Positions 44,402 through 55,372 are shown, counted from the stretch's first letter. The stretch: DNA of 64,000 bases from Asanoa sp. WMMD1127 (GCF_029626225.1 NZ_JARUBP010000001.1:2666001-2730000), one strand, 5' to 3'. Notes: a model not told the origin generated them from the sequence alone. A program made the numbers and translations.

Positions 44402-47400
44402 GTGAGCAAGCGGCCGAAGACGGCGAATTCCTTCATGTCGCGTCTCCGCCGGCCAGCCGGCCGGCTACGTGATCTGCCGATCTGGTCGAAGCTCGGCCTC
44501 ATCATGATCGTGCCGACCCTGGCGACGATCGTGGTTGGCACCAACGGCCTGATCGATCACATCGAGACGTCGGAGAACGCGGACCAGGCACGTGACCTCG
44601 CCGTGGTGGTGGAAGCGTCCGGGGATCTCGTCCAGAACCTGCAGAACGAGCGGGCCGCGGCGGCGATGCTGCTGGGTGCCGAGTCCGAGTCGAAGACGGC
44701 GCAGGCCAAATACCGCTCCGCCTTCGAGGCCTCGTCGCAGGCGGTCGACCGCGTGGTCAACAACTACTCGACGCAGCGGGCCTCCCTCAACGACCTGCCC
44801 GGCAACTTCGTCGGCACGCTCGGTCAGATCGACGACGGCCTGCAGGGCCTCCCGGGCGTCCGCAGTCAGGTGACCGGCGGCAAGTTCGCCTTCACGGACG
44901 CGGCCCGGGCCTACAACGCGCTCGTCGACAACCTGCTCAACCTCCGTGACGGCGCCGCCCAGCTGGCCGCCAACACGTCACTGAGCGAGCGGATGCGGGC
45001 GGTGGCCGCCGTCGCGCGCCAGAAGGAGTTCCTCTCGCAGGAGCGGCTCGTCGTGCTCCAGGCCTACAGCGCCGGCGCGATGAACCAGAACCTGAAGAAG
45101 GAGTTCATCGCCTCGCAGACCGGCCAGCTGCAGGCCTCCGAGACGTTCCTGTCGGTCGCCACGGTGACCGAGGAAGAGCAATACAACCAGACGGTGGCCG
45201 GCTCCGACCTGCGGTCGTCGACCGCGTTCGCTGGCTGGGTCACCGGCAACATGCCCAGCGACGGCCAGCTCGGCAACGCGCCGTTCACGATCGACTCGTG
45301 GGACAGCGCGCTGCTCGGCCACAGCCGGTTGATCCGCAGCGTCGAGCGCCGCTTCGACAACTCCGTGGTCGATGTCGCCACCACCCTGCGTGACGACGTG
45401 CAGCGCCAGGTCCTCATCGAGACCGGCCTGCTGCTCGCCATGCTGCTGCTGGCCATCCTGTTCGCCTGGTTGGTCGCCCGGTCGATGGCGCGGTCGCTGC
45501 GTGAGCTGCGGCACGGCGCGCTCGCGGTCGCCCAGTACGGCCTGCCGCAGGCGGTGTCCCGACTGCGTGACCCGGCGCTGTCCACCCAGATGTCGCCGGC
45601 CCAGCTGGCCAACCAGATCGCCGAGCCGCTGCCCGTCCGCAGCAAGGACGAGTTCGGCCAGGTGACCGAGGCGTTCAACGCGGTCCACCTCGAGGCCGTC
45701 CGCACCGCGGCCGAGCAGGCCGCCCTGCGCGCCTCCGTCGGCACGATGTTCGTCAACCTCGCCCGCCGTTCGCAGATCCTGGTCGACCGGCTGATCGGCC
45801 ACCTCGACCGGCTCGAGCGCGGTGAGGAAGACCCGGACCGCCTGGCCGAGCTGTTCCAGCTCGACCACCTGGCCACCCGGATGCGCCGCAACGACGAAAA
45901 CCTCCTGGTGCTCGCCGGCGCCGACTCGACCCGTATCCAGCGGGAGCCGGCCGCCCTGATCGACGTGCTGCGCGCCGCGCAGTCCGAGGTCGAGCACTAC
46001 ACCCGGATCGAGTTCGGGGTCATCGACCGCGACATCGAGGTCGCCGCCCACGCGGTCAACGACCTCGTCCACCTGGTCGCCGAGCTGTTCGACAACGCGA
46101 CCGCGTTCTCCCCGCCGGACTCGCACGTCATGGTCGAGGCCCGCCGGATCGGCGAGCACGCCGTGCTCTACGTCGAGGACCGCGGCATCGGCATCACGCC
46201 CGACCAGCTCAACGACATCAACGAGCGGCTCGCCACGCCACCGATGGTCGACGTGGCGGTCTCCCGGATGATGGGCCTCGTCGTGGTCGCCCGGCTCGCC
46301 GCGCGGCACGGCGTCAAGGTCGAGCTCCGGCCCGCCGCCGACCGCGGCACCGTCGCCGACGTCTCGCTGCCCACCTCGGTCCTGGTGCCCCGGGCGCTGG
46401 CCGGTCGTGGCCCGCAGGCCGGCGCCTTCGAGGTGCCGGTGCAGCAGCCGCCGGCCCAGGTCGCCCGCTCGCCGTTCCCCGCGCCGCTGGCGCTGGAGAG
46501 CGGCCCGGTGGCCCGGCCCGACCGCGACCTGGCCGGTGCCGGCGCGGGTGGCGGCCTCGCCAGCGCGTTCGGCGGCAACCGGCCGGGCGACGCGCACACC
46601 AACGGCTTCAACGGCGCCAACGGCAACGGCAACGGTCGCTCCGGCGCCGCGATGCCGGCGTGGTCCGACCTCACCGGCGCCGGCCCGCAGGGCGGCCGCG
46701 GTGACGACCCGTTCGGTGGTCCGCGCGGCGGCAACGGCCAGCGCCACGACCCGCTGCCGCAGCGCCGGGCGAGCGACGGCTGGGCGATGGAGGGCGAGGT
46801 GACCGCGGGTCCGCAGTCGCCGGCCATCCCGCGCCAGACCCCGCGCGACGACGTGGCCTCGCCGTTCTCGGCGCCGCCGGTCATCTCCGTGCCGCCGGTC
46901 ATCTCGGTGCCGCCGTCGTCGAGCCCCTCGTCCGCACCGCGCCAGCCCGAGCCGTGGGAGCAGGGCGGCCCGACGCTGCCGCCGAGCGCGCCCGCCGGCC
47001 CGCCGATCGCGATGCCCGACAGCCCGATCGTTCCCGGCCGCTCCGGTGGTCTGCCCGGTCGCCAGCCGGGTCAGCCGACCGGTCCGAGCGTGCCGCTGCG
47101 CCAGCCGCAGGCCATGACGCCGCCGCCGGCGTCGGCCCCGCCGGCCGCTCCGCCGCAGGCCAGCCCCGCGGCGCCCTACGGTCTCGCGGGCGCCGGCACC
47201 CCGGCCGGTGGCCAGGCGCCGCCGGCTTGGCCGCCGGTCGCGGCCGAGCCTCAGCCGGCCGCCGACCACCTGTCGGCCGGCCTCGACATGACCGCCGAGC
47301 TGCCCCGGGTCGAGCGCCCGGCGGCCGCCGAGGCGGCATCGGCCCAGCCCGCCGTCCCGCCGATCATCCCGGCCACCAACAAGGCCCGGTTCGCCGACGA

Positions 47401-48163
47401 GACGATGGAGCTGCCGATCTTCCGCGAGCTGGAGTCGGCGTGGTTCCGCACCCGCCGGTCCGCCGCGGAGGAGTCCTCGCTCACGCCGACGCCGAGCGCC
47501 GCCGCCGCCCCCGCGGCTGCCGCGCCGGCAGCCACCGCGGCGCCGGCGCCCGCCGACGCCCGGGTGGGCGCCGCCGGCGCGCCGACGCAGCAGTTCGCCA
47601 CCGTCGAGGCCAGCCAGCGGCTCACCAGCTCGCCGCAGTCGCGCACGGCGCCGCCGGCGGCCAGTCCGGTCGGTGGCGGCGGCCTGGGCGGCGGCGGTCT
47701 GGGCAGCGGCCTGCCGACGCGCCCGACGGCGCCGAGCGGTCCGGCGCCGAGTGGCCCGCCGCCGAGCGGTCCGCCGGCCCAGCAGCCCAGCGGCCTGTCC
47801 GGCAACGGCAACGGTGCCGCCCGTCGGCCCGAGCCCGAGTCGTGGCAGACGGCCGCTGACGAGGGGTGGCGGGCAGCGTCCGCCGTCTCCGACATGCAAG
47901 TGAACGAAACCACGCAGGCCGGCCTGCCCAAGCGGGTTCCGATGGCGCAGCTCGTGCCGGGCGGGGTCGACAAGGCGGCTTCCAACGTGCAGAAGCGCAC
48001 GCCGGAAGCGGTACGCGGGCTGCTCTCGGCCTACCACCGAGGTGTGCAGCGCGGTCGCACCCAGCCCAAGGACGAAACTTCGGATACGACTCCGGCCGGG
48101 CAGCCCTCCCAAGCTGGCCACGGTCCGGGTGCCGGGAGCGGTCAGAAGGAGCACGAACGATGA
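44402..48163 (+). CDS. cvnA: Conservon sensor kinase CvnA with NIT-type external domain
   Basis: A 1253-residue membrane sensor. Order: short cytoplasmic N-terminus; span ~29-50 ([20 protein letters not shown]); external nitrate/nitrite-sensing-like helical domain to ~335 ([36 protein letters not shown]); span ~338-361; HAMP-like linker; histidine-containing helix [20 protein letters not shown] (~485); ATPase with N-box [16 protein letters not shown] (~557) and VEDRGIGI. Then ~450 residues of Pro/Gly/Ala-rich, probably disordered tail. The tail ends in short conserved blocks: [11 protein letters not shown] (~1005), DEGWRAA (~1153), [14 protein letters not shown] (~1174) and YHRGVQRGR. In characterised conservons CvnA works with CvnB-D as a membrane G-protein-like complex. 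The GTG start at 44402 is the first of the frame; the stop overlaps cvnB as ATGA. Confidence 0.9.
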
Positions 48164-48564
48164 CAACCACGCAAGATCTCGGCTGGCTGCTCGCCAACTT
48201 CGCCGACCGCGTACCGGGTGTCGCACACGCGATCGCGGTCTCGGCCGACGGTCTGCTCCTCGCATCGTCGCGGGACCTGCCGCGCGACCGGGCCGACCAG
48301 CTGGCGGCGATCTCGTCCGGCCTGGTCAGCCTGACCCAGGGCGCGGCGCGGTGCTTCGAAGGCGGCGCCGTCCTGCAGAACGTGGTCGAGATGGACAACG
48401 GCTTCCTGTTCCTGATGTCGATCTCGGACGGTTCGTCGTTCGCGGTCCTGGCCGCCCGCAGCTGCGACGTGGGCCAGGTCGGCTACGAGATGGCGCTGCT
48501 GGTCGACCGGGTCGGCGACGCGCTGACACCGGCGCCGCGCACCGCCGCGGGCATGCTCGGCTAG
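48160..48564 (+). CDS. cvnB: Conservon roadblock/LC7 domain protein CvnB
   Basis: A 134-residue single-domain roadblock/LC7 protein: [52 protein letters not shown] and [17 protein letters not shown]. MglB-like roadblock proteins bind small GTPases as GAPs or scaffolds, here presumably CvnD. The ATG at 48160 overlaps the cvnA stop. Confidence 0.93.
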
Positions 48565-48661
48565 TCGTTCCCCGGAACGGCGCACCACACAACAACACAC
48601 AGACGCGACGAGTCCCGAGCGGTCGGGCCGTGCGGAACGGATGCGAAGGGGGTGAGCGGCG

Positions 48662-49039
48662 ATGACCGACAGGGACGAGCCGACCGGCGCGTTGGTGCGG
48701 CCGTACGCCGTCACCCGCGGCCGCACCCGGCCCCGGCTCGAGATCGCCCTCGAGGCACTCGTCGAGACGACGGTCCGTGGCCGGACAGCCAACTCCACCA
48801 AGGGTGGGCACGGTCGCGAGCACCAATACATCGCCGCGTTGTGCGACGGCCGGTTGCAGTCGCTCGCGGAGATCGCGGCCCGGATGCAGCTCCCACTGGG
48901 TGTTGCCCGGGTCCTGATCGCCGACATGGCCGCCGACGGGCTCGTCGCGGTCTACGAACCGACCTCACTGGAAGACACGAACGATGCGGTGGGCACTGAA
49001 CTGCTGGAGAGGGTGCTGAGTGGACTTCGCAGGCTCTGA
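48662..49039 (+). CDS. cvnC: Conservon DUF742 protein CvnC
   Basis: A 125-residue DUF742 protein with the family opening ALVRPYAVTRGRTRPR and a predicted winged-helix-like part (EHQYIAALCDGRLQSLAEIA, ARMQLPLGVARVLIADMAAD). DUF742 proteins are found almost only in cvn operons; their biochemical role is not established, though a DNA- or protein-binding winged helix is likely. It is separated from cvnB by 97 bases and overlaps cvnD by 20 bases. Confidence 0.92.
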   Translation: MTDRDEPTGALVRPYAVTRGRTRPRLEIALEALVETTVRGRTANSTKGGHGREHQYIAALCDGRLQSLAEIAARMQLPLGVARVLIADMAADGLVAVYEPTSLEDTNDAVGTELLERVLSGLRRL

Positions 49040-49628
49040 CGTGACGCACCGCCCGAGCGCTGGTCGTGTGACGTCGGCGAAGATTGTCATCGCCGGCGGA
49101 TTCGGCGTCGGCAAGACCACGCTGGTCGGGTCGGTGTCCGAGATCACGCCGCTGACCACCGAGGCCATCATGACCTCGGCCGGCGTCGGCGTCGACGACA
49201 CCCGGCAGGTGCCGGGCAAGACGACGACGACCGTCGCGATGGACTTCGGCCGCATCACGATCGACCGTGACCTGATCCTCTACCTGTTCGGCACACCCGG
49301 CCAGACCCGGTTCTGGTTCATGTGGGACGAGCTGGTTCGAGGCGCGATCGGGGCGATCGTGCTGGTCGACACCCGTCGACTAGCCGACTGCTTCGCCGCG
49401 ATCGACTTCTTCGAGCATCGCCGCCTGCCCTACCTGGTGGCGATCAACTGCTTCGACGGCGTGCAATACCACGACCCCCAGGACGTGCGCGACGCCCTCG
49501 CGATCTCCAGCGACGTCCCGGTCGTGGCCTGCGACGCCCGCAACCGCGAGTCGACGAAGCACGTGCTGATCAGCCTCGTGGAATACGTGCTCAGCATGCG
49601 CCGGTCGCGCGCGGTCGCCCCGGCCTGA
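49020..49628 (+). CDS. cvnD: Conservon small GTPase CvnD
   Basis: A 202-residue Ras-like P-loop GTPase of the bacterial Mgl/Cvn class. P-loop GGFGVGKTT lies at 26-34, switch I around TTTTVAMDFGRIT, and the G3 region LFGTPGQTRFWFMW carries Gly-Gln in the order usual for the family. The G4-like region is VAINCFDG. The GTG start at 49020 is inside the cvnC 3' end. It is expected to be regulated by the roadblock protein CvnB. A strong bidirectional terminator follows. Confidence 0.93.
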   Translation: MDFAGSDVTHRPSAGRVTSAKIVIAGGFGVGKTTLVGSVSEITPLTTEAIMTSAGVGVDDTRQVPGKTTTTVAMDFGRITIDRDLILYLFGTPGQTRFWFMWDELVRGAIGAIVLVDTRRLADCFAAIDFFEHRRLPYLVAINCFDGVQYHDPQDVRDALAISSDVPVVACDARNRESTKHVLISLVEYVLSMRRSRAVAPA

Positions 49629-49717: not shown

Positions 49718-50935
49718 TCAGCTGACGCGGATCCAGGCGTTCTCGACGACCTGGAAGACCGCCAGCGAGTCGGCGGTCATGCCACCGTGCTTGATCGGCT
49801 GGAAGTCGTAGGAGCCGGCGATGCCCTCGGTGATGAGGTTTTCCAGGTAGACCCGGATGCGGCCCCGGTCGACGCTGCGACCCAGGCGGGCGGCGTTGGC
49901 GATCAGGCGCACGGCGTCGGAGGTGTAGGGCGCGAAGCCCCGGAACGCACCGTGCTTCTGGATGTAGCGGTAAATGAAGTCACGCCGGTCGAGGTCGGCC
50001 ATCGTCGTGTCGGTCAGCGACGTGCCGGCGAGCGAGGCCGGGTGGATCGCGTAGGCGCCCCGGACGGCGATCTCGTTGTCGCCGGCGAGCGTGTCGTCGG
50101 CCACCGCGCCCGGGTCGAAGATGAACATGCCCTCGAAGCTGGAGTCGCGGGCCGCCTGCGCCGCGGCGCCGGAGTCGGGCGCCTGGGCCCAGATGATGAT
50201 GGCGTCCGGCCTCTCGTTGGTCACCTTGCGGACCGCCGAGGTGACGTTGTTGCCCGTGTTCGGCAGCTGTGACTCGATGAGATTGTTGCCGAAGGCCCTG
50301 CGCAGAGCGGCGATGCCGGCCGCGCCGTAGGCCCCGTCGGCGTAGATCACGCCGAGTTTGGTCGGGCGGTCCTTCTCGGGCAGGTTGTTGCGCAGGTCGA
50401 CCATCGCCCGCGCCACGTCTTCGGCGTTGGGCTGCAGCTTGTAGATGTAGGTGCGCGCGGTCAGCGGCGTGACGATGCCGTCGGCGGAACCCAGCGAGAT
50501 GAAGGGGACCTGCTCCTTCTGCGCGACGTTCAGCATCGCCAGCGAGGTCTCGGCCAGGATGCCGCCGAGCATCGCGTGCACGTTCTCCTTCTGGATGAGC
50601 TCCGTCGCCTGCTGCGCGGCGGTCTCGGGCCGGCTGCCGTTGTCGCGATAGATCATCTTGATCCGGCGGCGCAGGTTGCCGACGGGCACGCCCTCTTCGT
50701 TGAGCGTGTCGACGGTGATCCGCAGCGCCCGCTCCTGCAGCACGCCGTGCGCGGAGCCGGGGCCGGTCAGCTCCAGGCTGGCGCCGATGATGAGCTCCTC
50801 GGAGCCGCGCGTGGTGGGGCCGGGGCTGTCGCGCTCGTCATCGGCACCGCAGGCGGCGGTGAACAGGGTGCCGGCCGTGGCGACGAGGAGACCGCGCCGG
50901 GACAGCTGGACCCGGCTGAGCGCCGGCTTCGACAT
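49718..50935 (-). CDS. Tat-type solute-binding lipoprotein, branched-chain amino acid/amide (type I) family
   Basis: A 405-residue extracytoplasmic receptor. The N-terminus has a twin-arginine motif and lipobox (LSRRGLLVATAGTLFTAAC), so it is probably exported folded by Tat and then lipid-anchored. The mature part fits LivJ/AmiC-type binding proteins: IIGASLELTGPGSAHGV, RALRITVDTLNEEGVP, AMLGGILAETSLAMLNVAQK, YGAAGIAALRRAFG, RPDAIIIWAQAPDSGAAAQA. No transporter permease or ATPase is near. Its place facing the cvn operon suggests a sensing role alongside the kinase, but that is inference. ATG at 50935; AAAGG upstream on the minus strand. Confidence 0.85.
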   Translation of the reverse strand: MSKPALSRVQLSRRGLLVATAGTLFTAACGADDERDSPGPTTRGSEELIIGASLELTGPGSAHGVLQERALRITVDTLNEEGVPVGNLRRRIKMIYRDNGSRPETAAQQATELIQKENVHAMLGGILAETSLAMLNVAQKEQVPFISLGSADGIVTPLTARTYIYKLQPNAEDVARAMVDLRNNLPEKDRPTKLGVIYADGAYGAAGIAALRRAFGNNLIESQLPNTGNNVTSAVRKVTNERPDAIIIWAQAPDSGAAAQAARDSSFEGMFIFDPGAVADDTLAGDNEIAVRGAYAIHPASLAGTSLTDTTMADLDRRDFIYRYIQKHGAFRGFAPYTSDAVRLIANAARLGRSVDRGRIRVYLENLITEGIAGSYDFQPIKHGGMTADSLAVFQVVENAWIRVS

Positions 50936-51044: not shown

Positions 51045-54000
51045 TCACGTCCGGGCAGACCGGTATTCGTATTCCTGGCTCTCGTCACGGCCACCGTGGT
51101 CGCGGCTGAAGTCCCAGCCACCGGCGGATTCGCGGCCGGGACGGCCGCCCACGGCGTAGCCACCGATCTCCTGACCGCGACGCCAGCCGCGGAAGTAGCC
51201 GGTGGTGTGCGCGGCGATGCTCGCGGCGTCGCGGACGATGCGCAGTGGCCGCTCCTCGCGCAACGGCGAGCCGGGCACGAGGTTGGCCTGCGGGACCCGG
51301 CGCGGGAGGCCCGACTTGGTCTCGACGCCCACCGCAGGCGAGGAGGCCTTCTCGGCGGCCTGCCAGCCCGTGTCGGCGACCGACGCCCAGGCCAGGTCTT
51401 CGCTCTCGTCCGGGTGACCGGTGAACCACGCCGAGCGGGCGGCCGCGAAGATCAGCAGGTCGCCGTCGCCCTCGTCGGAGACCGGCGGCGCGCTGATGCC
51501 GATCGGGAGCTGGTGGCTGCCGGTGTCGGACGGGCTCTCCACCAGCCGCAGCGGCGGCGCGTCATAGCGGGCGGCGTAGTCGTCGCGGTTGCGGCGGTCG
51601 CGGTTGCGGGTCTCGCGCGGGCTGTCGTCGCGCAGGGCGCGGTCGGCCAGCGGCGGCGGCTCCACCAGGCGCAGGATCGGCGGCTCCGGCGGCATGTCGT
51701 CGGCCAGCCACGGCGGCGGCACCCGGTCGTCGCCGACGGCCGAGTAGGTCGGCCGGTCGAGCTCGCTCGGCGGCAGCTCGCTCAGGTCGGGGAAGCGCGA
51801 GTCGCCGTTGGCCCGGTCGTCGCTGGTGTTGTCGACCAGCGGCCAGTTGGCCCGGGCGCCCGGCTCCGGTCGCGGGGCAGGCACCGGAACGCTCAGGTCG
51901 GTGGCCTGGAAACCGGTGACCGGCGGCTGCGGCGGAGGCGGCGTGCCGGCCGCGCGGCCGTTGGCGCGCGGCGGGATCACGGTCGGCCGCTTGCGCTCGG
52001 CGCGGGCCGAGTTGAGGGCGGCGTTGGTCAGCGTGGCCCGGAACGGCTCACCGGCCTCGGCCGGCGGCACGGTCGGCCGCTGCGCCGGGATCGGGGTGAT
52101 GCCGGGCGGCGGGGGCGGCACGGAGACCGGCTTGTTGGCCGGGCTGGCCGAGACCGGCCGGCCGGGCAGCGGCGTCGTCGAGGCGGCGGGCGACTGCGGC
52201 GTGGCCGGCAGCCGGGGCGCGGTGGAGTAGCGATCGGCCGGCGACTGGGACGCGGCGGGCAGCTGCGGCGCGGCCGGCAGGTGCGGTGCGGCCGGGTAGC
52301 GCTCGGTGGCCGGCGTCTCGGGCGTGGCCCGGTAGCGGTCGGCGGCCGGGGAGTGCGGCGCGGCGGGCAGGTGCGGTGCGGCCGGGTAGCGCTCGGCCGC
52401 GGGTGCCTCGGGTGTGCTCCGGTAGCGGTCGGCGGCCGGTGCGGCGGGCAGGTGCGGCGCGGCCGGGTAGCGCTCGGTGGCCGGCGTCTCGGGCGTGGCC
52501 CGGTAGCGGTCGGCGGCCGGGGAGTGCGGTGCGGCCGGCAGGTGGGACGCGGCCGGGGAGTGCGGTGCGGCCGGCAGGTGCGGTGCGGCCGGGTAGCGCT
52601 CGGCCGCGGGCGCCTCGGGCGTGGCCCGGTAGCGGCCGGCCGCCGGTGACTGCGGCGCGGCCGGCATGCGCTGGGCGGCGGCCGGCGACTCGGGCTGCTG
52701 GTGCGGCGCCGCCGGAGAGTGCGGTGCGGCCGGCAGTGGCGTCGGGGGCTGCAGCGTGGCCGGGGTCGGCGGCTGCGGTGTGGCCGATCGCGGCTGCTGG
52801 TAGCGGCTGGTGCCGTCGAAACCGGTCGACCAGGCGTGACCCGGGCTGCGGGACGGCATCGGCGTGCCGCCGCTCGGCGTCGGCGTGGTCAGGCCCGGCG
52901 CGGCCGTCTCGGCGGACCGGTTGGGGTTGCGCTCGGTCGAACGGCTCGTGCGGGACTCGGTCGACCGCCCCGGTGTGCGCTGGTCGGCGGCGCGGGCGGC
53001 CGGGTTGCGCGGCTCGGCGGCGCGTCGCCCGGCGTTCGGGGGCCGGGCCGGGCTGGCGGCCCGGGCAGCCGGCTCGGCTGGCTCGGCGAACGGCGTGGCC
53101 GAGGTGACCGGGGCCGGCGCGGTCGGCGGCGGCGTCACCGGGGTGGGCGCGACCGGCGGGGTCGTCAGCGCGCGCGGCGTGGTCGCCGCGGCGGCCGGCT
53201 CGGGGCGGTGCCGGCGGCCGGTCGCGCCGCGCTCGGGCAGCGGGACCGGCAGCGCGTGCAGCCCGGCCGGCGTCGCCGCCGGCTCGGTGGTCTCGGTGGT
53301 GGCGGCGGCGCGGCGCATCGGGCGGCGCGGGACCGCGGTGATCGGCGTCGTGCGGGCGGCCAGCGTGGCGACCAGCGCGGCGCAGCCCTCGTCGCAGGAG
53401 CGCACGGCGGCGACGGCCTGCCGGACGGCATCGGCGGACGCGCTGGCGAGCGCCTTGCTGATGGTGCCGCGGCGCGGCGTCTCGGCGATCGCGACCCGCA
53501 GCGCGGTGATCGCCTCGGCCACCTCGGCCTCGTCGCCGAGCCCGTCGGCGGCCAGCCGCTTGACCACCGCTTCGGCGGTCGCGGGCAGGTCACGGCCGCG
53601 GGCGGCCACGCCGGAGACCAGGCCGGGCTCGGGCAGGGCGTCGAGGACGGCGAGCGTCAGCGGCTCGGCCGGGTCGGAGTAGGCGCGCAGCGCGGCCGGG
53701 TAGAGCTCCCGGAGCACCTCACGCAGCGTCGCCGCGGCGGAGTGGCGGCCACCGGCGAGCGCGGAGTGCGCGGCCAGGACGGGCCGGTAGGGCGCGAGGT
53801 CGCGGGGCACCGGCAGGCCGACGGCGAAGATCGCACCCGCCTGGAGCGCCCGGGCCAGGCCGACCGCGCGGCGCTCGGCGGCCGGGGACTCCATCTCCTC
53901 GAGCGACTCGTCGTCGGCGAACCGCTCGGCGAAGTCGTCGACCGCGTCGTCGTCGGCGATGGCCAACGGCCGGCCGGCGGCGGACAACAGGGAGGTCACC

Positions 54001-54230
54001 TCGTGGTCGTCGCTGTCAGCGGCGATGGCGGCGGAGCCGGGGCCGTTGGCCCGCTCCGCCAGCAGGGCGCCTAGCTCGGCGTAACCCGCCGGGTCGTCGG
54101 TGATCTCGCAGACGTCGAGCAACCGCCCGGCGTCGTCGACGACGGCCGCCGTCAGACCAGTGCCGGCAGTAGCCGGCCGACCCGTCGGTTCCGCCGATGC
54201 GAGACCGCAGTACACCCGCACGAGCGCCAC
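51045..54230 (-). CDS. Mosaic protein: IS110-transposase-like N-terminal domain, Pro/Ala repeats, sensor-kinase-tail module
   Basis: A 1061-residue protein. Residues 1-~230 resemble the RuvC-fold N-terminal part of IS110-type transposases in strand/helix order (VALVRVYCGLASAE; VVDDAGRLLDVCEITDDPAG; EVTSLLSAAGRPLAIADDD; AERRAVGLARALQAG), but the expected catalytic acids are not at the matching places. A Thr/Pro/Ala-rich region (~290-870) contains degenerate repeats of the SPAADRYRATPETPATERYP type. The C-terminus has IFAAARSAWF (~925), ADTGWQAA, GLPRRVPQANLVPG (~975) and YFRGWRRG, the same blocks as the CvnA tail. I choose the GTG at 54230, eight bases after AGGAGG (minus strand, 54239-54244); the GTG at 54254 is the longer choice. 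Not an active transposase: no terminal repeats, and the fused tail argues for a recruited scaffold in cvn signalling. Confidence 0.75.
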   Translation of the reverse strand: MALVRVYCGLASAEPTGRPATAGTGLTAAVVDDAGRLLDVCEITDDPAGYAELGALLAERANGPGSAAIAADSDDHEVTSLLSAAGRPLAIADDDAVDDFAERFADDESLEEMESPAAERRAVGLARALQAGAIFAVGLPVPRDLAPYRPVLAAHSALAGGRHSAAATLREVLRELYPAALRAYSDPAEPLTLAVLDALPEPGLVSGVAARGRDLPATAEAVVKRLAADGLGDEAEVAEAITALRVAIAETPRRGTISKALASASADAVRQAVAAVRSCDEGCAALVATLAARTTPITAVPRRPMRRAAATTETTEPAATPAGLHALPVPLPERGATGRRHRPEPAAAATTPRALTTPPVAPTPVTPPPTAPAPVTSATPFAEPAEPAARAASPARPPNAGRRAAEPRNPAARAADQRTPGRSTESRTSRSTERNPNRSAETAAPGLTTPTPSGGTPMPSRSPGHAWSTGFDGTSRYQQPRSATPQPPTPATLQPPTPLPAAPHSPAAPHQQPESPAAAQRMPAAPQSPAAGRYRATPEAPAAERYPAAPHLPAAPHSPAASHLPAAPHSPAADRYRATPETPATERYPAAPHLPAAPAADRYRSTPEAPAAERYPAAPHLPAAPHSPAADRYRATPETPATERYPAAPHLPAAPQLPAASQSPADRYSTAPRLPATPQSPAASTTPLPGRPVSASPANKPVSVPPPPPGITPIPAQRPTVPPAEAGEPFRATLTNAALNSARAERKRPTVIPPRANGRAAGTPPPPQPPVTGFQATDLSVPVPAPRPEPGARANWPLVDNTSDDRANGDSRFPDLSELPPSELDRPTYSAVGDDRVPPPWLADDMPPEPPILRLVEPPPLADRALRDDSPRETRNRDRRNRDDYAARYDAPPLRLVESPSDTGSHQLPIGISAPPVSDEGDGDLLIFAAARSAWFTGHPDESEDLAWASVADTGWQAAEKASSPAVGVETKSGLPRRVPQANLVPGSPLREERPLRIVRDAASIAAHTTGYFRGWRRGQEIGGYAVGGRPGRESAGGWDFSRDHGGRDESQEYEYRSART
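52255..52660 (-). repeat. Degenerate coding tandem repeats, units of about 81-126 bp
   Basis: The sequence GCGGCCGGGTAGCGCTCGG recurs near 52288, 52378, 52459 and 52585 inside the mosaic gene. It encodes four copies of a TERYPAAPHLPAAP / PAADRYRATPE unit of about 27-42 residues. Copies differ by whole codons, so the repeats are kept in frame. They are coding, with no spacers of constant length. Confidence 0.8.
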
Positions 54231-54289
54231 GGCGTCGTCCTCCTCCCCGGGCACAAATGTGCCAAGGACTGATGTTCCCTGGTTAGGGG

Positions 54290-55372
54290 TCAGTCGCGCC
54301 AGTCCACAGCGGCAGAGATCTTGCCGATAATCGTGCGCCAGCCCAAACTTGCGGTTTGTGCCCCGATTTTCCGGAGTCGGCGGCGTGCCATGAACCCGCC
54401 GATGCCGCCGTCCACGACCCCACGCAGGGCTTCGTCGAGGTCGTCGAGGCTCGAACCGGGAGACAGCATGTCGAGAACAGCGGGCAGGCGCAAGGCGTAC
54501 GCCAGGTCGCGGGCCACCTCGCCGGCTTCGATGATCAGCGGCGGGTCCCAGCTGTCGTGGCCGCCACGCAGGTTCTCCACCACGAGGTCGAGCTCGTAGG
54601 AGTCCTCGTCGAGCGGCGCCACGTTGACGGGCTCGATGCGCTCGGCGAGGGTCGCCCAGGCGTCGACCTGAGCCAGGTCGTGGGGCGCGCCCGAACGGAT
54701 GAAGCTGACCAGCCCCTCGGGGCTGCGGAAGAGCAGCAGCTTGCCGCGGTGGGTGAGGAAGACGGGGACCTCCTCGGCCGCCTCCTCTTCTTCCTCTTCC
54801 TCTTCTTCTTCGGCGTGCTCCTCGGCCTCGACGTCCGCCTCGGCGTCTTCGTCGTCCGCCCGGTCGGTGTCGGCCTCGTCGTCGTCCTCGTCGGCGTCGC
54901 GGGCGCCGGCGCGGGCCTTGCGGCGCTCCTCGCGGCCGGCCGCCTCGGCCTGCTCGGCCAGCTCCTCGTCGGTGAAGACGAGGTCGTCCTCGTCCTCCTC
55001 GGCCAGGCGCGCCCGGGCCGAGAACGGGTCGTCCTCGTCGCGGTCGGAGGTGTCGGTCGGCGTGAGCTCGTTGGACATCCGGTAGGCCCGCAGCGTGTAG
55101 CCCGTGCCCGCCGGAAGGGCGATCTCGACCGGGTCGATCCGCAGGTCTTCCCAGAAACCTCGGTGGTCGGCGGGGTCGACACCGACCTCGTCGGCCTCGG
55201 TCGCCTCGTCGGTCACCTCATCGGCCTCGTCGGTCACCTCATCGGCGGCAACGGCCTCGTCGGTCACCGCCGCTTCGGGCGTGTCGGCGCCGGGCGTGGT
55301 CTCCTCGACCTCGGCCACGGGCTCGTCCGGGGACGGCGACTTGGCCTTGGACCGGTTGGACTGGCGCGCCAC
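54290..55372 (-). CDS. Acidic hypothetical protein with poly-Glu tract, 360 aa
   Basis: I cannot assign a function. The first ~65 residues are an acidic low-complexity region with VTDEADEVTDEATEADEVG repeats. A conserved-looking block follows (DHRGFWEDLRIDPVEIALPA), then a second acidic region (~110-205) with a run of ten Glu (~194-203). The folded C-terminal part reads VPVFLTHRGKLLLFRSPEGL, APHDLAQVDAWATLAERIEP and ALRLPAVLDMLSPGSSLDDL. There is no signal or membrane segment. The ATG at 55372 is used. It lies upstream of and co-oriented with the mosaic gene (60 bases apart) and may be co-expressed with it. Confidence 0.7.
   Translation of the reverse strand: MARQSNRSKAKSPSPDEPVAEVEETTPGADTPEAAVTDEAVAADEVTDEADEVTDEATEADEVGVDPADHRGFWEDLRIDPVEIALPAGTGYTLRAYRMSNELTPTDTSDRDEDDPFSARARLAEEDEDDLVFTDEELAEQAEAAGREERRKARAGARDADEDDDEADTDRADDEDAEADVEAEEHAEEEEEEEEEEAAEEVPVFLTHRGKLLLFRSPEGLVSFIRSGAPHDLAQVDAWATLAERIEPVNVAPLDEDSYELDLVVENLRGGHDSWDPPLIIEAGEVARDLAYALRLPAVLDMLSPGSSLDDLDEALRGVVDGGIGGFMARRRLRKIGAQTASLGWRTIIGKISAAVDWRD

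Follow-up and report, generated by a model that had tools for sequence, protein, structure and literature searches.

Why does a transposase-like domain, joined to the tail of a signalling protein, lie beside a conservon in Asanoa sp. WMMD1127? The gene in question is found in a stretch of 64,000 nucleotides (GCF_029626225.1, NZ_JARUBP010000001.1:2666001-2730000), which we call the window and in which positions are counted from the first letter. A reading made from the sequence alone had proposed that this gene encodes a domesticated IS110-like domain fused to a conservon-type tail. Our analyses reported an N-terminal domain of IS110 ancestry that has lost both its DEDD residues and the serine half of the IS110 recombinases and is fused to the tail of CvnA kinases; both ends are under constraint, and the gene is nearly universal in its bacterial family and associated with conservons and, in deep lineages, with a Roadblock gene of its own. 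The explanation we favour, at a probability of roughly 55%, is that the fusion protein is a dead, domesticated IS110 fragment turned into a kinase-less, CvnA-like conservon scaffold, which would dock CvnB-type proteins via its tail. The gene and its parts are laid out as follows.

51045..54230, minus strand: fusion gene, encoding an IS110-derived domain, a disordered linker and a CvnA-type tail, 1061 residues
53808..54230, minus strand: RuvC/RNase H-like part, residues 1-141, with substitutions at the DEDD acids (D1 to A, E2 to D, D3 to A, D4 to R)
53346..53807, minus strand: helical part resembling a coiled coil, residues 142-295, which matches the inter-domain helices of IS110 and the coiled-coil region of Nop5
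51486..53345, minus strand: Pro/Ala-rich, presumably disordered linker, residues 296-915, under relaxed constraint
51048..51485, minus strand: CvnA-type tail, residues 916-1061, with motifs LLIF..SAWF, W..ADxGWxAA, TxxGLPRRVPQANLVPG and R..YFRGWRRG

The longest open frame of the gene spans 51045-54254 on the minus strand. We placed the likely start at the GTG at 54230 because a strong ribosome-binding site, GGGGAGGAGG, lies immediately upstream and the N-terminus VRVYCGLA is conserved; this agrees with the end given to the gene by the sequence-only reading. The closest named relatives are Asanoa species (91-94%). Conserved sequence in the helical part includes LREVLRELYPAALRAY. The linker is 22% proline and 19% alanine and contains tandem repeats at approximately 52252-52740 with a unit of about 90 bp; protein length varies strongly between species, from about 480 to 1126 residues.

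The window protein alone had no Pfam match, and single-sequence searches of Pfam, NCBIfam and the PDB with its N-terminal domain gave nothing useful; homology was therefore demonstrated with family profiles. A match of the fusion to an IgA-binding protein in NCBIfam fell in the low-complexity linker and was discarded. Aligning the N-domains of 40 family members with 14 true actinobacterial IS110 transposases by hhalign gave a probability of 99.2% and an E-value of 2e-19 over 257 columns, and a set of deep-branch N-domains gave 2e-16 in the profile-profile comparison with true IS110s, each E-value being that of a single comparison. A hidden Markov model (HMM) of true IS110s gave 30.7-72.1 bits for all but one of the 51 family members and 10.8 bits for that one, with 47.2 bits for the window N-domain and 9.1 bits for the best shuffled control (n=1020), which bears out the IS110-like N-terminus proposed earlier. 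As the true IS110s in these profiles had been collected by similarity to the query, the support from Pfam matters as an independent source: PF01548 (DEDD_Tnp_IS110) matches 20 of the 40 family members with a best E-value of 1.7e-10, and one member (L081) passes its curated gathering cutoff in a separate scan. In a tree, the fusion family and the true IS110s lie on opposite sides of a branch with 100% support. The N-domain of the fusion shares ancestry with IS110 recombinases.

The RuvC-like fold that had been claimed for this domain was also compared at the level of structure. An AlphaFold model (mean predicted local distance difference test, pLDDT, of 65.7) has strands and helices in RNase H order, and Foldseek with this model returned the IS110 recombinases ISCro4 and IS621 first and as the sole matches at E <= 1e-3, followed in third place by Nop5, whose structural kinship with IS110 is known; the template modelling score of the top matches over the whole length is low (0.23). 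By VIA-align the model reached a Z of 6.4-6.6 against IS621 and ISCro4, amid many other RNase H folds, and residues 143-296 aligned with the coiled-coil region of Nop5 at a Z of about 7. No Nop domain was among the Pfam matches of the fusion protein, whose sequence past residue 295 is low-complexity linker, and the family profile, run against PDB sequences, gave no match above chance level. The modelled structure speaks for a RuvC fold, and the order of the Foldseek E-values for IS110, though structure alone is no proof.

Is the domain still an enzyme? Aligned to IS110, the four DEDD columns of the window protein hold A, D, A and R, so that the loss of catalytic acids noticed in the sequence-only reading holds, though with letters that differ from those it gave (Gly, Ala and Leu). 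The first D is replaced in 51/51 members by A, T, V or S, the third is lost in 47/51 (kept in 4) and the fourth in 46/51 (kept in 5); the E is also replaced in the family, mostly by D. The HHD aspartate and the invariant tryptophan of GIDW are gone as well, and so, mostly, is the K of KSD; residues at structural positions are retained (the G of CG, the P of YPAAL, the A of DA). The alignment of the family to IS110 ends at template column 262 of 408, ahead of Transposase_20 (PF02371), the domain with the conserved serine, which was present in 14/14 true IS110s and was not found in the window protein or in the 10 relatives scanned. The N-domain is predicted to be catalytically dead.

A dead IS110 domain might still bind DNA or a small RNA, with the tail tying the protein to the conservon as an output arm. 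IS110 recombinases bind bridge RNA and DNA (PMC11208160), the RuvC-like fold is retained, and no DNA-binding output of conservons is known, the effector being unknown in PMC13343842. We nevertheless consider such a role rather improbable, given that the Transposase_20/Nop-type RNA-binding half was not found and the domain is acidic, with a median isoelectric point of 4.8 vs 6.25 in the same region of true IS110s and a net charge of -14 in the window vs a median of -3. Rfam gave no match at the locus (no bridge RNA model was searched), and the gap to the upstream gene, about 40-60 bp in most loci, would usually leave too little room for a bridge RNA. Of the two roles raised in the sequence-only reading, nucleic-acid binding is not favoured on account of the acidic domain, the absent RNA-binding half and the short upstream gap; the scaffold role is kept and narrowed to a putative docking of CvnB-type proteins.

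It could also be that the gene is a functionless, decaying remnant, or an active IS110 relative that is here by chance, true IS110 elements being common in the same genomes. We give this very little credence. Within Asanoa, the ratio of nonsynonymous to synonymous substitution rates (dN/dS) is 0.11-0.14 in the N-domain and 0.09-0.13 in the tail, about 0.1 in both conserved ends, and 0.29-0.38 in the linker: the N-domain and the tail are under strong purifying selection. Of 121 genomes drawn evenly from the GTDB family Micromonosporaceae, 119 have the fusion, nearly always at one locus, and it forms one well supported clade separate from all IS110s. In an order-wide search the long fusion (E < 1e-78) was confined to that family; other families of the order have ordinary IS110s, mostly of 410-440 residues, with far weaker matches (best 1e-26). 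The lost catalytic residues also speak against an active element. In about 100 genomes the fusion is essentially single copy at a fixed position, and true IS110s in these genomes are common and often multi-copy. Two diverged extra copies with the tail and with no conservon nearby were seen (L095:9579-11021 and L096:9762-10794), in each case with the main copy also present.

No convincing transposon ends were found around the gene, as had been noted from the sequence; the inverted repeats near it were rejected as GC-rich background. Their absence carries little weight, because IS110 elements are typically without terminal inverted repeats (PMC11208160). Better evidence against mobility is given by the fixed position, the near-single copy number and the lack of any match to the fusion in plasmid and phage searches.

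If the N-terminus is a dead transposase fragment, what is the C-terminus? The neighbouring conservon provided the answer.

44402..48163, plus strand: cvnA, NIT-HAMP-HATPase sensor kinase with the same tail at its C-terminus, at about 47831-48058
48160..48564, plus strand: cvnB, Roadblock/LC7 protein, start overlapping the cvnA stop by 4 nt (ATGA)
48662..49039, plus strand: cvnC, DUF742 protein
49020..49628, plus strand: cvnD, Ras-like GTPase family protein

These genes form a complete conservon (a G-protein-like signalling operon of actinobacteria), cvnA-cvnB-cvnC-cvnD, at 44402-49628 on the plus strand, convergent with the fusion gene. The fusion and CvnA have four motifs in common, arranged in one order: [DE]LxIFxxxxSAWF, WxxxADxGWxAA, TxxGLP[RK]RxP..xLVPG and R....Y.RG..RG. 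A tail-only HMM built from the fusions scored the window CvnA at 63.8 bits, as compared with at most 6.9 bits for shuffled kinases, and so upheld the claim that the C-terminal module is common to the adjacent kinase. The same HMM detected the CvnA C-termini of the window's and other conservons, other families included, with E-values down to 4e-22. Apart from the fusion, the proteins found to carry the tail, whether in the organism's own genome or across a sample of the phylum, were conservon kinases, nearly all with cvnB directly after; in its own genome the window fusion is the sole tail protein that is not a conservon kinase followed by cvnB. Judged by these matches, the tail is a general C-terminus of CvnA kinases across Actinomycetota. 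The idea of a domesticated IS110 fold linked to a conservon is kept; the tail is not peculiar to the fusion and its adjacent kinase. AlphaFold gave no stable fold for the tail, just two short helices, which suits short docking motifs. The kinase features themselves are missing: Pfam found no HATPase domain in the fusion protein, and in place of NIT and HAMP there is the dead RuvC/coiled-coil domain.

The association with conservons was surveyed in 105 loci whose downstream flank is 9 kb or longer, which are non-independent and include many from Micromonospora. The tail is present in 105/105 loci. In 95/105 the fusion is convergent with cvnABCD, and the homologues are not scattered away from cvn loci. 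Neither of the two outcomes named in the sequence-only reading as refuting it, a failure to match a RuvC/IS110 fold and homologues without a link to cvn loci, was observed. The earlier suggestion that they might always lie next to a conservon failed in the other 10, where the conservon is out of reach. Nine deep genomes in which the fusion and the conservon lie apart all keep conservons elsewhere. Of 61 named loci, 58 have the N-domain and the tail in a single reading frame.

In 19 of the 105 loci, from deep lineages, a Roadblock gene lies directly behind the fusion tail; its product, which we call CvnB2, was identified as a Roadblock protein in a separate domain scan. Among 11 cases examined, 9 have a CvnB2 start that overlaps the fusion by 4 nt, and the window's cvnA-cvnB pair has a like overlap. 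The gene is not found in the window or in most crown lineages, and parsimony on the tree makes it ancestral at the base and lost towards the crown. Where CvnB2 is missing, crown members have at their C-terminus a conserved extension of about 40-50 residues (GG.AVGGRPGRE..GGWDF; 51048-51200, minus strand, in the window, where it reads GGYAVGGRPGRE..GGWDF). The extension is absent from members that bear CvnB2, with an intermediate (L106) having CvnB2 and a partial extension; the stray copy in L095 has neither. In a tree of CvnB proteins CvnB2 stands on its own long branch, for which reason a recent origin by copying of the adjacent cvnB was dropped as an explanation. A search for CvnB2 elsewhere in the window's genome found just ordinary CvnB paralogues at 32-44%.

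Together with published work on conservons, these observations suggest a route by which the fusion may have arisen and acted. An IS110 transposase gene would have inserted into a cvnA-cvnB type pair, or recombined with one, and taken the place of the sensor-kinase half, with the linker, the tail and the coupled cvnB retained. The dead RuvC/coiled-coil part would then be a cytoplasmic, probably dimeric platform, for which Nop5 provides a precedent: its inactive RuvC domain recruits fibrillarin and its coiled coil dimerises (PMC12045711). CvnB is thought to connect the CvnA kinase input with CvnC and CvnD, and the CvnB homologue MfpD is a GTPase-activating protein for its GTPase (PMC13343842). 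The tail would dock CvnB-type Roadblock proteins, namely CvnB2 in the deep lineages and, after its loss in the crown lineages, the CvnB encoded by the adjacent conservon. By competing with CvnA for CvnB, or by bridging to CvnA, the fusion could tune the GTPase CvnD with neither kinase nor nuclease activity. That deep lineages have their own Roadblock gene after the tail points to docking of a CvnB-type protein rather than to a vague scaffold role. A bolder version, possible though we lean against it, is that the fusion and CvnB2 form a second, kinase-free conservon input, a stand-alone module feeding the G protein of the cvn system that is conserved in the family; the fusion would then be the first known case of an IS110 protein exapted for a role in signal transduction.

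Several points weigh against this scaffold explanation. Docking of CvnB by the tail is deduced from gene order and shared motifs, and the tail could instead bind CvnC, CvnD, the membrane or another kinase. CvnB2 is missing from most window-like genomes, for which the partner is a guess. The AlphaFold model is of only moderate confidence (65.7), and CvnB2 is no close copy of the adjacent CvnB and so lends no support to a simple local duplication of the cvnA-cvnB pair. The tail might also make a CvnA-CvnA type contact or be a kinase substrate, in which case the fusion would act upstream, like CvnF, and not on CvnB. The fusion and CvnA do have the tail and the locus in common, and the accessory protein CvnF8 binds and stimulates the kinase CvnA8 (PMC13343842). 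Yet the published CvnE and CvnF go with kinases that have no extracytoplasmic sensor (PMC13343842), whereas the window CvnA has a NIT domain, and in deep lineages the gene coupled to the fusion encodes a Roadblock protein rather than a kinase; we therefore hold a kinase partner to be unlikely.

Two further genes flank the fusion.

49718..50935, minus strand: Peripla_BP_6 substrate-binding lipoprotein gene, between the fusion gene and cvnD, in 40/105 loci
54290..55372, minus strand: SatS-like ('primosomal protein'-like) gene, directly upstream of the fusion on the same strand, in 102/105 loci

The lipoprotein gene occupies the slot held by CvnB2 in deep lineages and is patchy, with about 7 changes on the tree. 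The SatS-like gene and the fusion may be on one transcript, and the product of the former, an acidic protein, is possibly a functional partner of the fusion. A class-wide search for the SatS-like protein found nothing outside the family at the limit used, which was probably too strict.

If the scaffold explanation is right, a recombinase of the bridge-RNA type was pared down to its dead core and put to new use as a protein scaffold, in parallel to the inactive RuvC of Nop5. In the Micromonosporaceae, a family of soil bacteria, a selfish gene seems to have been turned into a component of signalling. The CvnA tail is marked out as a portable module, which makes the communication from kinase to CvnB and GTPase in conservons directly testable. 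To our knowledge, few domesticated transposases have been described in bacteria. A literature search, with subscription journals mostly outside its reach, found no exapted or domesticated IS110 and neither an IS110 nor another transposase in a conservon.

How, then, does the fusion compare with known systems? TnpA-REP, which has been called the first domesticated transposase of prokaryotes (PMC8266576), is likewise a transposase taken over by its host, but it is tied to REP DNA and its dissemination, whereas the fusion is predicted to be catalytically dead and is linked to signalling. With the IS110 recombinases (IS621, ISCro4; PF01548 and PF02371) the fusion shares the RuvC-like domain and the following helices, collinear over about 257 columns; unlike them it has no intact DEDD and no serine/Transposase_20 half, is immobile, and carries a linker and a kinase-type tail. 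Nop5, of the Nop5/Nop56/58 and TIGR-Tas group (PMC12045711), also has an inactive RuvC-like domain and a coiled coil, but in the fusion neither the RNA-binding Nop part nor a guide RNA was found, and the lineage and context are different. Among conservon proteins, the accessory CvnE (P450) and CvnF (GAF) (PMC13343842) resemble the fusion in being encoded by an extra gene attached to the conservon. The fusion differs from them in its unrelated domain, with no Pfam match to P450 or GAF, in its position on the opposite strand, convergent with the operon, and in being partnered with a CvnA that has a sensor domain. With the CvnA kinases the fusion shares the Pro/Ala-rich linker and the four-motif tail, and in deep lineages it is followed, as cvnA is, by a Roadblock gene, usually with a 4-nt overlap; unlike them the fusion is without NIT, HAMP and HATPase and has the dead RuvC/coiled-coil domain there. 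Conservons and their accessory proteins CvnE and CvnF were already known; the fusion, which is neither of these two proteins, would add to the conservon system a further type of accessory protein or scaffold.

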